A stretch of 15,606 nt of DNA, from contig JBFLYA010000083.1 in NCBI GenBank assembly GCA_040757115.1, forward strand, positions 1-15,606, in the 5' to 3' direction. Positions 2,329 through 15,419 of the stretch are shown piece by piece. The stretch's first letter is position 1, and every line of letters starts with the position of its first letter. The notes beneath the pieces were generated by a model, which ran no database searches, was not told where the DNA came from, and worked only from the letters and a program-made list of their open reading frames with translations. The stretch comes from a bacterium (GTDB lineage Bacteria > UBA9089 > CG2-30-40-21 > SBAY01). Both the position numbers and the translations under genes were made by a program.

Positions 2329-2432
2329 TGAAAATAGTAGGTAGGAGATAGAAGGTGGGAGGTAAGGAGATAAGCGTGAGGAGTGATGTTTTCTTTACTT
2401 TCTACTCTCTACTTTCTACTTCCTTATTTTCA
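2329..2432. repeat. TGAAAATAG hairpin element, copy A
   Basis: The left end is TGAAAATAGTAG and the right end CTACTTCCTTATTTTCA. The interior is purine-rich on the left and made of TCTACTT/CTCTACT heptamers on the right, so the strand can fold into a long imperfect hairpin. The sequence just past its right end (AGGAG, 2432-2436) is the Shine-Dalgarno sequence of the gene starting at 2443. Copies B and C are at 5796-5880 and 7640-7756. Confidence 0.65.
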
Positions 2433-2442
2433 GGAGAGAATA

Positions 2443-3981
2443 ATGAGGAAAACTATTTTTATATTGTGGTTAATGATGGTTACTTCAATTGCCTCAGCTG
2501 AATTATCCATAACCGCTAAGGTAGGCTTTGAGGGGAAATATAGAGATTTATGGCAATTTATACCTATTCTGATTGAAGTAGATAATTCTTCTTCTAAGAC
2601 TATCAAAGGTGAATTGGTCCTTTCATTTGAAATAGAGAGATTATCTGGCGAGATAGAGAGAATAAACACTCCTTACACCTTACAGATTCATATCCCGGCA
2701 AAAACAAAATCAAATTATTGGTTTTATCTACCATTTATGAACTGCTACCAAAAACCAGAGATAAATCTATTGGTTAATAACAAAATAGTCGCCTCTACTT
2801 GTTTATCTGCTACTCCCTTATGGGATCAAGAAGTTGTGTTAGGTATAGTCCAGCAAGGGGTTATATCTAATTGTGGAATTCAAAAAATTGGAAATAGAGA
2901 ATATATCTTTCTTTATCCTCTACCTTCTACTTTGCCTGATGAATGGATAGGATACAGCAATATAGAGACGATTTTAGTTGATAGTCCATCTCTAAATTTA
3001 CTCACCTCTAAACAAAGAAAAGCACTCAAGATGTGGTCAGCACTGGGTGGTAAATTAGTCAATATAGAAGGAATGAGTAAAGATAAAATAGACGAATGGC
3101 TAAAGGAAGAATTAAATGAATTAAATCTATTTTTAAGTGGGATTATAGATATAGTTAGAATTCAAACATTCCTATCTAAAATCCCACAAATGGAGGTTCC
3201 TTCACCAGGAATTATCTTTCTACTCTTATTCATCTACCTTTTACTCATAGGTCCTATAAATTATATCATCTTGAAGAAAAAGAAAAAATCTGAAATTTCC
3301 TGGATTACTATTCCTATCTTAGTGATTTTATTTAGTCTTACCTTTTATATTTATGCTCAGAAAATCAAGGGAAAAAGTGCCATGCTAAATGAATTATCTA
3401 TCCTTCATATCCCCGCAGGTAAAAATTGGGGTATTTTGAATGCCTCTTATGGGTTATTTTCACCCGAAAAAATAAGTTATAACCTTAGATTTAACACAAG
3501 AAGTTTTATCCGTTTCCCTCAATATAACTTTTATGAAGGGGTAGGGTATAAAATTATTCAGACTAATAATGAAACCTATCTACAAAACTTGTTAGTTGAA
3601 AAATGGGCGATGAAAACATTTATTACTCAATCCATAATTCATCTTGACGGAACGATTATCTGCCAAAAAGATAATCAACAAGTTTATGTAGTTAATACCT
3701 CACATTACCAGTTGTTAGATAGTGCTATCTTAATTAATGGTGTCTATCTGTCTTTGGGGAATATTAATTGCCAAACTAAACAAACCTGGGAAATTGACAA
3801 ATTGAAGGAAGAAACACAATATCGGGTTCCGGAATTCATTACCCCCCTGCGTTATATGAAAAAGAATTTCTTCTTAGCATGGCTTGAAAAACCAATCATT
3901 GAACCTGAATTATCTATCCGCGGATGTGAAAGAAAATCTACCATTTTGGTAGTTATTCCAATAACAGCAAAGGAGCAGTAG
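2443..3981 (+). CDS. Secreted/membrane protein of ABC-2 export locus
   Basis: I start this 512-residue protein at ATG 2443, because AGGAG lies 6 nt upstream and the new N-terminus is a clear signal peptide (MRKTIFILWLMMVTSIASA, cleavage before ELS). The open frame reaches back to 2383, but those codons are repeat sequence. About 240 residues of periplasmic beta-rich sequence follow, then two membrane segments: near GIIFLLLFIYLLLIGPINYI, then, after a KKKKK turn, near WITIPILVILFSLTFYIYA. A second extracytoplasmic part ends the protein. The GPINY-type segment is typical of proteins encoded beside ABC-2 transporters. The stop is 2 nt before the ATPase start, so the two are translationally coupled. 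I infer an accessory subunit, roughly analogous to GldG-like or Nos-type partners; I do not recognise a named family. Confidence 0.75.
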   Translation: MRKTIFILWLMMVTSIASAELSITAKVGFEGKYRDLWQFIPILIEVDNSSSKTIKGELVLSFEIERLSGEIERINTPYTLQIHIPAKTKSNYWFYLPFMNCYQKPEINLLVNNKIVASTCLSATPLWDQEVVLGIVQQGVISNCGIQKIGNREYIFLYPLPSTLPDEWIGYSNIETILVDSPSLNLLTSKQRKALKMWSALGGKLVNIEGMSKDKIDEWLKEELNELNLFLSGIIDIVRIQTFLSKIPQMEVPSPGIIFLLLFIYLLLIGPINYIILKKKKKSEISWITIPILVILFSLTFYIYAQKIKGKSAMLNELSILHIPAGKNWGILNASYGLFSPEKISYNLRFNTRSFIRFPQYNFYEGVGYKIIQTNNETYLQNLLVEKWAMKTFITQSIIHLDGTIICQKDNQQVYVVNTSHYQLLDSAILINGVYLSLGNINCQTKQTWEIDKLKEETQYRVPEFITPLRYMKKNFFLAWLEKPIIEPELSIRGCERKSTILVVIPITAKEQ

Positions 3982-8205: not shown

Positions 8206-8736
8206 TTAGTCATCATTACTCCACGCCTTTATGCTTTTATCAATAGTTAATTGTAAAACTCCTTGATTTTTTAAGATATACTCAATGATTTCTCTAACCG
8301 CTCCTCTTCCACCATTTTTATTGGCAACATAGCTCACTTCTGATTTAATATATTCTGGTGCATCATTAACGGTTGCTGAGAACCCAACTTTTCTGAATAA
8401 GGAAATGTCGATTATATCATCTCCAATGTAAGCAATATTTTTATAGTCTAATTTTTCTTTTTTCAGGATTTCTTCAACTGCTTCTAACTTATTGATTTTT
8501 TCCTGGATGACATAATCCATCTTTAGCTCTTTCCCTCTTTTTTCAACTGCTTTGCTTGTTCTACCTGTAATTACGCCTACTTTTAATCCTGCTTTTTTAG
8601 CTAAAGTTATGCCCATTCCATCTTTGATGTCAAAAAATTTTAACTCTTCGTTTTCCCCAAGTATTATTCGTCCATCGGTTAAAACACCATCGACATCCAT
8701 AAGTATTAATTTTATATCTTTGGTTTTTTCTTCCAT
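8206..8736 (-). CDS. kdsC: Kdo-8-phosphate phosphatase
   Basis: KdsC removes the phosphate of 3-deoxy-D-manno-octulosonate 8-phosphate, the step before CMP activation in Kdo synthesis; it is a cytoplasmic HAD-superfamily enzyme without a cap domain, usually a tetramer. The 176-residue protein has the full HAD set: MDVDGVLTDG with Asp14 and Asp16, VITGR with Thr57, a conserved Lys (K83) and IGDDIID with Asp106/Asp107. The C-terminal GGRGAVREI (142-150) is the KdsC tail that reaches the active site. Length is normal. The start is supported by AAAGGA about 7 nt upstream in the 11-nt gap after the transaldolase-CBS stop, so the two genes are co-transcribed. It is the last gene of the minus-strand run. 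Confidence 0.92.
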   Translation of the reverse strand: MEEKTKDIKLILMDVDGVLTDGRIILGENEELKFFDIKDGMGITLAKKAGLKVGVITGRTSKAVEKRGKELKMDYVIQEKINKLEAVEEILKKEKLDYKNIAYIGDDIIDISLFRKVGFSATVNDAPEYIKSEVSYVANKNGGRGAVREIIEYILKNQGVLQLTIDKSIKAWSNDD

Positions 8737-8747
8737 CTAATTATCCT

Positions 8748-9776
8748 TTAAGTATTTAATCCTTTGTATTTAAGGATGTCATGGATGTGAATTATTCCAA
8801 ATGGTTCCTGATTTTCTGTAACTGTAATTAATTGAGTAATACTCGATTTTTCCATCATAGATAAAGCCTCATGAACAAAGGCATCTTTTGATATTGTTTT
8901 TGGTTCTCTGGTCATACATTCTCCTGCACGATAATCATAGAGATTTGGAAATTTTTGAATTGCTCGGCGTAGGTCACCATCAGTAATACATCCTATCAAT
9001 TTTCCTTCCTTGTCTATAACCAGAACAATACCGAGTTTTTTCTTTGTCATTTCAACGATTGCATCTTTCATATAAGTTTCTTCAGTCACAACGGGTAAAT
9101 CTTCTCCTAAATGGAGTAAATCTCTGACATACCGGGTTAACATAATATCTTCTTCGAATTTGTCAATACCGGATTTAGTCAAGGGGTGTTGAAACATTTG
9201 CTCTATGGCAAAAGGCGGTATAGTAATGCAATCAGCCCCAATTAAAAACGCCTGACGGACATGTTCTGGTGTTCGGACACTTGAAACCATTACCTTTGAT
9301 TTTATTTCTGGGTATTTCTTAAAACCAGTAATTATCTCCTCAATCACCTTTAAACCATCGTAACCAATATCATATATTCTTCCGACAAGAGGACAAACAT
9401 ATGTCGCTCCAGCTAATGCCGCCAGGATTGCCTGATTTAATGAAAAGAGTAAGTGAACATTTGTTTTAATTCCTTTTTCTGATAGGTATTCAACTGCTTT
9501 TATACTCTCATGATGCAGAGGAATTTTTGAAATCACATTGGGCCCCATTTCCATATTAGCCATAGCACTTTCTATAATTTCCTCAGCCGTGTTTCCCATC
9601 GCTTCAATATGAATCTCACCAGGAATTATCTGAGAGATTTTTTTTATCTCACCTGGTATATCCGTTATTCCTTCTCTTCTGAAAAAAGTAGGTGTTGTCG
9701 TTACGCCCGAGAAAATCTTCATTTTAGAATATTTCTCAATGGCATTAATATTTGCTGAATCAATATATAGTTTCAT
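8748..9776 (-). CDS. Transaldolase-family barrel fused to KdsD-like CBS pair
   Basis: The start is ATG 9776: GGAGGA (9783-9789) is correctly spaced for it, whereas the ATG at 9791 overlaps that site. Residues 1 to ~215 of the 342 form a transaldolase / fructose-6-phosphate-aldolase (TalC/FSA) barrel: MKLYIDSAN with Asp6, GVTTTPT (24-30), Glu58, the Schiff-base lysine K84 in ISKIPL, LVGRIYD (130-136) and the phosphate-binding SSVRTP (165-170). Unusual positions are Thr28 for the family Asn, His108 for Thr in NVTL, and Cys128 for Ser in SPFVGR. Residues ~225-342 are two CBS motifs ending ITDGDLRRAI ... CMTREPKTI ... ITQLITV ... GIIHIHDIL, the same pattern as KdsD C-termini. It lies where kdsD would be expected, between kdsA and kdsC. 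Activity is unproven; see findings. Confidence 0.85.
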   Translation of the reverse strand: MKLYIDSANINAIEKYSKMKIFSGVTTTPTFFRREGITDIPGEIKKISQIIPGEIHIEAMGNTAEEIIESAMANMEMGPNVISKIPLHHESIKAVEYLSEKGIKTNVHLLFSLNQAILAALAGATYVCPLVGRIYDIGYDGLKVIEEIITGFKKYPEIKSKVMVSSVRTPEHVRQAFLIGADCITIPPFAIEQMFQHPLTKSGIDKFEEDIMLTRYVRDLLHLGEDLPVVTEETYMKDAIVEMTKKKLGIVLVIDKEGKLIGCITDGDLRRAIQKFPNLYDYRAGECMTREPKTISKDAFVHEALSMMEKSSITQLITVTENQEPFGIIHIHDILKYKGLNT

Positions 9777-9782
9777 TTTATC

Positions 9783-9789
9783 TTCCTCC
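9783..9789 (-). promoter_or_regulatory. Shine-Dalgarno sequence deciding the start
   Basis: GGAGGAA on the minus strand, ending about 7 nt before ATG 9776. It lies within the first codons of the longer frame from 9791, which argues for the shorter protein starting MKLYIDS, the normal family N-terminus. Confidence 0.8.
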
Positions 9790-9802
9790 ATTTATATTTG
9801 GT

Positions 9803-10205: not shown

Positions 10206-11009
10206 CTAATCCCCCCTTTTACTTGATGTAACCGCCTTCCAGATAGGTAGAATATCTTTGAGCAAATTTTCAAACTCTTTAAATGAGAGTTGAGTAGCCG
10301 CATCGCATTGGGCTATTTCAGGTTGAGGGTGGACCTCAACGAATATTCCATCGAGTTTACAAGCAATGGCGGCACAGGCCAGGGTATTAACATATTCTTT
10401 TGCTCCACCTTTCTCAAGGTCAGCGGATGGCACACCATATTTTCGGATTGAATGACCCGCATCAAAAAACACAGGATAACCAAAAGATTTGAGTATAAAA
10501 AAAGACCTCGGGTCAACTACAAGGTCTCTATAACCAAAACAACTTCCTCTTTCAGTAATCATAATTTTATTGTTGCCAGTGCTTTCAATTTTTTTCACAA
10601 TTTTACCTACATCTTCAGGATGGAGAAATTGTCCTTTTTTGATATTAACTGGTTTGCCCACACTGGCGATTTTTAAAACAAGCTCGGTTTGCATACAAAG
10701 ATAAGCAGGTATCTGAAGAATATCCACTACATCGACTATTTCGCTGTCAATCTCATAAAGATTATGAAAATCGGTGATTAAACTTACTCCATATTTTTCT
10801 TTTAAATATTTAAATATCTTGATACTTTCTTCTAAATCAGGACCTGTATAATAATTATAACTTGAGCGATTATCTTTTTTAAACGAACTTTTGTAGATAA
10901 TTTCAAAATCGTATTCTTTTGAGAAATCTATTAATGCTTCGATCGTCTTTACCGAAGTATCAAGATTTTCCAGGATACAGTTACCGGCAATTATTTTTAA
11001 CTTTTTCAT
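10206..11009 (-). CDS. kdsA: Divergent Kdo-8-phosphate synthase, metal-dependent type
   Basis: KdsA condenses phosphoenolpyruvate with D-arabinose 5-phosphate to Kdo 8-phosphate in the cytoplasm. This 267-residue protein has normal length and barrel order: IIAGNC, YKSSF, ITDFH (78-82), VNIKKGQF (121-128), ERGSCFGY (153-160), FFDAGHS (181-187) and VEVHPQPEIAQCDAATQL (224-241). Cys11, His186, Glu225 and Asp236 match the metal ligands of the Aquifex-type (class II) enzyme. The aldose-phosphate site differs: the hallmark KANRS reads KDNRS (45-49) with the preceding Asp changed to Lys, the RGxGLE loop reads TGPDLE, Arg106 is Met, and DATHS is DAGHS. It could therefore use a modified substrate. AAAGGG precedes the ATG; the promoter is at 11100-11129. 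Confidence 0.82.
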   Translation of the reverse strand: MKKLKIIAGNCILENLDTSVKTIEALIDFSKEYDFEIIYKSSFKKDNRSSYNYYTGPDLEESIKIFKYLKEKYGVSLITDFHNLYEIDSEIVDVVDILQIPAYLCMQTELVLKIASVGKPVNIKKGQFLHPEDVGKIVKKIESTGNNKIMITERGSCFGYRDLVVDPRSFFILKSFGYPVFFDAGHSIRKYGVPSADLEKGGAKEYVNTLACAAIACKLDGIFVEVHPQPEIAQCDAATQLSFKEFENLLKDILPIWKAVTSSKRGD

Positions 11010-14960: not shown

Positions 14961-15419
14961 TTAACCTTGATTTTCTTCCTTTAATGTTGTGGTCACAAGT
15001 TGTTTAGTTATTTTTAACCACTCCTGGTATTCTTTCCCTTTATTAGAAAGGAATTTTTTAATACTATCCCATCTAATATCAAGATACTGATGGGCTAAGA
15101 TATATCTGAGTTTTGTGCCTTCGGCTAAATTCTGGGATAGATTATTTGAGATTAAACCCATTGTTGATAGATTCAAGAAATACTCTTTATAGGTATCCGG
15201 GATTTCTTTATTTTCACTGACTAATATAATTTTAGCTATATCCAATGAAGCATTAACAATATTTTCTATACATCTTTCTAAACTCCGTCTTTTATTTCTA
15301 TCTTCTTGATAAGTTTTATAATCAAGGTCAAAAAAATTACTTAAATCACTTAATTCAATTTCCATAAAGTCGAAGATTTTTACTAATCTTTCAATATAAG
15401 ATTTTTTTATAGATGACAT
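14961..15419 (-). CDS. hepT: HepT-type toxin (HEPN, DUF86)
   Basis: HepT toxins are HEPN-fold proteins paired with an MNT-type nucleotidyltransferase antitoxin (MntA), which in studied systems AMPylates the toxin. This 152-residue protein is helical and keeps the family features: RRSLERCIENIVNASLDIAK (44-63) and the RX4HXY motif as Arg105, His110 and Tyr112 in RYILAHQY. All three key residues are present, so the toxin appears intact. Its start ATG 15419 lies inside the end of the antitoxin frame (13-nt overlap), the usual gene order. The partner is truncated. The 2-nt spacing to recN puts it in the recN transcript. Confidence 0.85.
   Translation of the reverse strand: MSSIKKSYIERLVKIFDFMEIELSDLSNFFDLDYKTYQEDRNKRRSLERCIENIVNASLDIAKIILVSENKEIPDTYKEYFLNLSTMGLISNNLSQNLAEGTKLRYILAHQYLDIRWDSIKKFLSNKGKEYQEWLKITKQLVTTTLKEENQG

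Follow-up and report, generated by a model that had tools for sequence, protein, structure and literature searches.

The window, by which we mean the whole 15,606-nucleotide stretch analyzed here (contig JBFLYA010000083.1), carries on its minus strand a gene (8748–9791) encoding a TalC/FSA-type (beta/alpha)8 barrel fused to a KdsD-type pair of CBS domains. It is located between kdsA (10206–11009) and kdsC (8206–8736), which lie on the same strand. From the first ATG the reading frame encodes 347 amino acids; the true start is probably the internal Met6 at position 9776, giving a protein of 342 amino acids, since this column is Met in 60 of 61 fusion homologues and GGAGGAAG lies just upstream. 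The first-pass annotation had placed the gene at 8748–9776, which holds for the gene and for its probable start, although the first ATG is at 9791. All of the residues it singled out are present, and its Asp6, Lys84, Arg168, Thr28, His108 and Cys128 correspond to D11, K89, R173, T33, H113 and C133 in the 347-residue numbering used below.

The barrel spans residues 8–213 (9153–9770; Pfam TAL_FSA, E 1.3e-42) and scores 214.6 bits against the NCBIfam model TIGR00875 (fsa/talC), below the curated cut-off of 245.95 bits. The CBS pair occupies residues ~221–342 (8766–9131), with two Pfam CBS stretches (E 1.4e-21), and the NCBIfam KdsD model PRK10892 covers residues 221–341 only, that is, the CBS pair. 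No SIS domain was found in the protein with Pfam or NCBIfam. These searches bear out the proposed union of a TalC/FSA-type barrel with a KdsD-pattern CBS pair between kdsA and kdsC, as well as the absence of KdsD's SIS domain. In the AlphaFold2 model of the fusion (mean pLDDT 90), the barrel matches solved TalC transaldolases with Z ~31, at a sequence identity of 36–40%. The upstream kdsA is a variant with KDNRS, CMQT and RKYGVPS motifs, while kdsC encodes an ordinary-sized KdsC/YrbI-type HAD phosphatase (TIGR01670, 166 bits; cut-off 107).

The kdsA and fusion genes, which in most other loci adjoin directly, lie 414 bp apart in the window. The sister genome G001 (L046:4788-6920) has two genes in this interval, one for an AAA_15 ATPase whose best PADLOC match is NsnB (175 bits) and one for a 302-amino-acid protein lacking any match, at the place where the window has repeat-like DNA. 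The sister genome encodes the fusion at 99% identity, and this copy, together with about 58 further loci of the same architecture, rules out misassembly or a chance fusion. Elsewhere in the window, the gene for a HepT-like ribonuclease family protein (14961–15419) immediately precedes recN, and no obvious partner antitoxin is encoded in the window; a 532-amino-acid protein lacking Pfam or PADLOC matches (2383–3981) is encoded just upstream of the gene for an ABC ATPase.

A scan of contigs returned more than 50 further full-length fusion loci, labelled as Bacteroidota, Ignavibacteria, Gamma-, Delta- and Alphaproteobacteria, Nitrospira and SAR324, and the fusion set considered below comprises 61 loci from several phyla. 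The fusion was present in three of four genomes from another phylum, that of genome G048, at ~40% identity, its start codon there overlapping the end of kdsA. Under even sampling it is rare, being found in 5 of 296 Bacteroidota genomes, one of which was the seed. In a tree that took in 24 plain TalC sequences, the 61 barrel domains form a single clade (support 1.0), and the window's genus branches apart from the remaining fusions.

Linkage to Kdo genes is a recurrent feature of these loci. When the domain order was followed across genomes, as the first-pass annotation had proposed, kdsA was found within the fetched stretch of 48 of the 61 loci, where with few exceptions it immediately precedes the fusion in the same orientation; a KdsC-like HAD gene was found in 46, for the most part immediately after the fusion. 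About 12 loci had no kdsA in the fetched stretch, in some cases owing to contig ends. One cultured bacterium, Xanthovirga aplysinae RKSG123 (L112), has kdsA, the fusion region and the HAD gene, although on its draft contig the reading frame of the fusion appears to be broken. WaaA is encoded near the fusion in 20 loci and KdsB in eight; furthermore, a lipid A acyltransferase gene adjoins at L095 and a heptose epimerase gene at L104. Homologues of KdnA and/or KdnB occur in nine fusion loci. Shewanella KdnA and KdnB convert Kdo to 8-amino-Kdo, a sugar which, to our knowledge, has been described only from Shewanella. Bacteroidota/Ignavibacteria loci with such homologues beside the fusion are L056, L058, L059, L062, L073, L075, L079 and L094, and the L056 pair scores 418 bits against the Shewanella structure of KdnB (5k8c) and 432 bits against that of KdnA (5k8b).

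Several further observations were made in these neighborhoods. The assignment of the HAD protein after the fusion as canonical KdsC is true in the window and fails in seven other loci scanned, where the protein is a longer (224–253 amino acids), divergent KdsC relative scoring below the KdsC cut-offs (e.g. L058:7034-7789, L067:7043-7804, L094:7008-7682). At L056 (3311-4288), and also at L057, L059 and L082, an aldo-keto reductase gene lies upstream of kdsB-kdsA-fusion; its nearest models are the methylglyoxal reductase YdjG and L-glyceraldehyde 3-phosphate reductase, and it may connect these loci with glycolaldehyde or other small aldehydes. Finally, the Elusimicrobiota MAG contig DAOVJB010000120.1 (L114:2-2869) carries an operon of kdsA, plain talC, kdsC and kdsD, in which TalC is unfused and KdsD is present. 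The KdsA encoded there carries Arg205 and Gln120, the TalC carries a Cys at FSA position 129, and the operon possibly represents an intermediate state.

The distribution of KdsD is complementary to that of the fusion. As evidence that would count against the proposed replacement, the first-pass annotation had named a SIS-CBS KdsD encoded at another site of the genome; none was found in the host genome (assembly completeness 99.87%) in SIS and TIGR00393 (KpsF/KdsD) searches of the whole genome. The SIS proteins of the host are GlmS, GmhA (L003) and a GmhA-like protein (L004), and nothing exceeded the TIGR00393 cut-off, the best match being the fusion's own CBS pair. The possibility that L003 or L004 is a single-domain arabinose 5-phosphate (A5P) isomerase was rejected, as L003 scores above the GmhA cut-off, L004 resembles GmhA and both fit TIGR00393 poorly. 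On host contig 48 (L004:165-2747), a sugar-kinase-like ORF, the GmhA-like SIS protein and a 328-amino-acid protein lacking a Pfam match are encoded in a row, possibly a separate sugar-phosphate cluster. The host also encodes a separate plain TalC, KdsB and WaaA.

Searches of 55 fusion genomes detected KdsA and WaaA in 54 each and KdsB in 53, while full-length KdsD was present in only five (G074, G078, G086, G094 and G095), each of which carries a second, canonical kdsA; most fusion genomes are draft MAGs, in which a single absence is weak evidence. When the genomes were sorted by kdsA content, KdsD was found in none of the 47 that have one strong kdsA and in five of the seven that have two (Fisher p 7e-6, calculated over related genomes with kinship ignored). 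The other two genomes with two kdsA genes, G080 and G102, yielded no KdsD, and an enolase-like gene lies beside their second kdsA. An evenly drawn Bacteroidota sample provided four further fusion genomes, all of them lacking KdsD, which was present in 48 of the 67 other genomes. Closer relatives follow the same pattern: G002 and G003, from the window's family, possess KdsD and lack the fusion, and in G007, from the window's order, kdsD directly follows a kdsA with canonical motifs. The absence of KdsD that the first-pass annotation had expected in fusion genomes is therefore the rule, and its central proposal, a non-orthologous supplier of A5P or a related sugar phosphate, is supported by the kdsA linkage together with the absence of KdsD. 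From these gene distributions we consider it very likely that the fusion supplies the aldose phosphate of KdsA in place of KdsD.

To compare active sites, residues of the fusion were mapped onto E. coli FSA and TalB, and their uniformity was assessed over the 61 fusions and 24 plain TalC proteins. The predicted Schiff-base lysine, Lys89 (codon 9525–9527, minus strand as for all codons given here; FSA Lys85, TalB Lys132), and Asp11 (FSA Asp6) are kept in all 61 fusions, as is Glu63 (9603–9605; FSA Gln59, TalB Glu96), and both phosphate-site arginines, Arg138 (9378–9380; FSA Arg134) and Arg173 (9273–9275; FSA position 168), are invariant. At the donor end, all 61 fusions carry Thr33 (9693–9695; FSA Asn28), His113 (9453–9455; FSA Thr109, TalB Thr156), Cys133 (9393–9395; FSA Ala129, TalB Ser176) and Leu in place of Tyr/Phe at FSA position 131; Ala165 of FSA is likewise uniformly replaced by Ser. 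The first-pass annotation had pointed to the unusual threonine, histidine and cysteine at usually conserved positions, and these prove to be common to the whole family. Except for the Cys at 129 in L114, the plain TalC proteins examined differ at the changed donor positions. In FSA, Asn28 and Ala129 stabilise the dihydroxyacetone donor, and the catalytic water of FSA/TAL enzymes is held by Gln/Glu59-Thr109-Tyr131 (PMC13259622), a trio uniformly recast in the fusions as Glu-His-Leu. Because the lysine and the phosphate arginines are invariant while the donor residues are uniformly changed, the acceptor end is retained and the donor end rebuilt, as would be expected for an enzyme with a changed donor or a changed mode of proton transfer.

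This site is difficult to reconcile with an ordinary transaldolase acting in fructose 6-phosphate or sedoheptulose 7-phosphate chemistry, regulated by its CBS pair and present in the kds operon by chance. Homology to TalC is clear, and there is room for such a role where the fusion is the sole TAL_FSA protein, as it is in 26 of the 55 genomes; the other 29, the host included, have another transaldolase-family protein. G063, from the same family as the fusion-bearing G048, lacks both the fusion and any TAL_FSA protein and possesses KdsD, and a transaldolase role would leave the genomes with a single kdsA without a source of A5P. Together with donor-site residues unlike those of the plain TalC proteins, these points make an ordinary transaldolase very improbable.

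The CBS pair provides a second connection to KdsD. Its top sequence matches among solved structures are the KdsD CBS pairs 4o9k, 3k2v and 3fna, its best fold match is 4o9k, the CBS pair of Methylococcus KdsD (Z 17.4), and its TDG..R block is kept across the fusion family. The ligand of 4o9k we take to be CMP-Kdo. Since the nearest solved relatives are KdsD CBS pairs and the TDG..R block is kept, end-product control through this domain is likely by analogy.

We therefore favor, with a probability of roughly 0.5, a reading in which the fusion is a substitute for KdsD, namely a class I aldolase-type A5P synthase that would use glycolaldehyde and glyceraldehyde 3-phosphate (G3P) under feedback of the CMP-Kdo type. 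The imine formed between Lys89 and glycolaldehyde as two-carbon donor would give an enamine that attacks G3P held by Arg138 and Arg173, and release would yield A5P, with the KdsD-derived CBS pair setting the rate by sensing the end product. The co-encoded KdsA variant would then join the aldose phosphate to phosphoenolpyruvate, and KdsC or a KdsC-like HAD, KdsB and WaaA would complete the route. The stereochemistry of D-arabinose is that expected of an FSA-type addition. The first-pass annotation was right about the precedent, as E. coli FSA forms A5P from glycolaldehyde as donor and G3P as acceptor (PMC6298115; PMC9947464), and a Francisella transaldolase has been solved in covalent complex with A5P (3upb). 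The components of this reading differ in strength: A5P is the probable product, while the chances of the aldol route itself are about even. This route is metabolically awkward, with no glycolaldehyde source of sufficient size evident.

That difficulty would disappear if the barrel were instead an isomerase, converting ribulose 5-phosphate to A5P in the old transaldolase site and thus an analogue of KdsD on another fold: ribulose 5-phosphate is abundant, making a glycolaldehyde source unnecessary. Glu63 and the new His113 would move the proton and the two arginines would hold the phosphate, which agrees with the uniform rebuilding of the water-holding residues. Both linkage to kdsA and loss of KdsD are shared by this explanation and by the aldol route. 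Nevertheless, the Schiff-base lysine and Asp11, kept in 61 of 61 fusions, are not obviously needed by an isomerase, and the transaldolase family contains no isomerase that we know of, so that we regard this alternative as doubtful.

Whichever chemistry operates, the KdsA encoded beside the fusion bears on the identity of the product. These partner KdsAs constitute a distinct clade, which the first-pass annotation had missed. At positions 61, 120, 205 and 207 (E. coli numbering), 48 of 48 have Asp, Met, Arg and Tyr (A61D, R120M, Q205R and R/P207Y), whereas the corresponding residues are Ala, Arg, Gln and Pro/Arg in the canonical KdsAs that were compared, namely those of E. coli, Acinetobacter, Fusobacterium, Bacteroides, Parabacteroides, Prevotella, Legionella, Xanthomonas, Roseovarius, Streptomyces, Bacillus and Leuconostoc. 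In the window, Asp46 (codon 10872–10874, minus strand) corresponds to Ala61 in the KANRS motif of the aldose site and Met106 (10692–10694, minus strand) to Arg120, which we take to be a contact to the phosphate of A5P. Moreover, fusion and partner KdsA distances correlate over the 48 loci (r 0.79). Judged by this correlation and the shared KdsA substitutions, the fusion and its partner kdsA travel and change together. The substitutions may reflect a re-fitted A5P site, a hand-over between the partners or a different substrate.

With the surroundings of its aldose site uniformly altered, the partner KdsA could indeed use a substrate other than A5P. The fusion and its partner KdsA might make and use a different aldose phosphate (e.g. 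a C4 or C6 sugar or a pentose epimer), leading to a Kdo-like but distinct ulosonic acid in the outer membrane; in the five genomes with both suppliers, each supplier has its own kdsA, a pairing that joint inheritance of the genes would explain equally well. The KdnA/KdnB neighbors, whose characterised relatives act on Kdo, the ordinary KdsC in the window and the single KdsB serving two kdsA systems in the dual genomes favor A5P as the product, and the CBS pair resembles that of KdsD. A different aldose phosphate is thus unlikely. The same low weight is given to its broader form, a second, undescribed branch of the Kdo family in which the fusion and its co-evolved KdsA would turn an aldose phosphate other than A5P into an undescribed ulosonic acid replacing Kdo.

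Nearly all Gram-negative bacteria make Kdo, and the formation of A5P by SIS-type isomerases is regarded as the invariable start of the pathway. The fusion in the place of KdsD suggests that scattered bacteria of several phyla obtain the Kdo precursor by an undescribed route, and no published link between a transaldolase-CBS protein and KdsD was found in the open-access full-text literature. Such an enzyme, with its different fold and its matching KdsA variant, would account for a step that many genomes otherwise lack and would be a case of an aldolase domain joined to a feedback domain borrowed from elsewhere. It would perhaps also be a natural use of the formation of A5P from glycolaldehyde and G3P, a reaction put to work so far in designed pathways; a product other than A5P would mean a new outer-membrane sugar.

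Compared with known systems, the fusion shares with the SIS-CBS A5P isomerases KdsD/KpsF/GutQ its place in the kds operon, a homologous CBS pair, a complementary distribution and the presumed role of feeding KdsA. In contrast to these enzymes it lacks the SIS domain, its catalytic part being a Schiff-base aldolase barrel N-terminal to the CBS pair. With the TalC/FSA family it has in common the barrel fold, the Schiff-base lysine, the aspartate equivalent to Asp6 and both phosphate arginines, and it differs in its Thr/His/Cys/Leu donor site, its CBS pair, its TIGR00875 score below the cut-off and its separate clade. The partner KdsA resembles Kdo8P synthase in passing PRK05198 and, in most genomes, TIGR01362, whereas in or near the aldose site it has KDNRS, (C,V,A)MQ(T,S) and R(K,R)YG(I,V)PS in place of the canonical KANRS, RQT and Q.P. 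Finally, the reaction proposed for the fusion is the one that E. coli FSA performs in synthetic glycolaldehyde assimilation (PMC6298115; PMC9947464); those are promiscuous enzymes in designed pathways, whereas the fusion would represent a natural biosynthetic use tied to Kdo.
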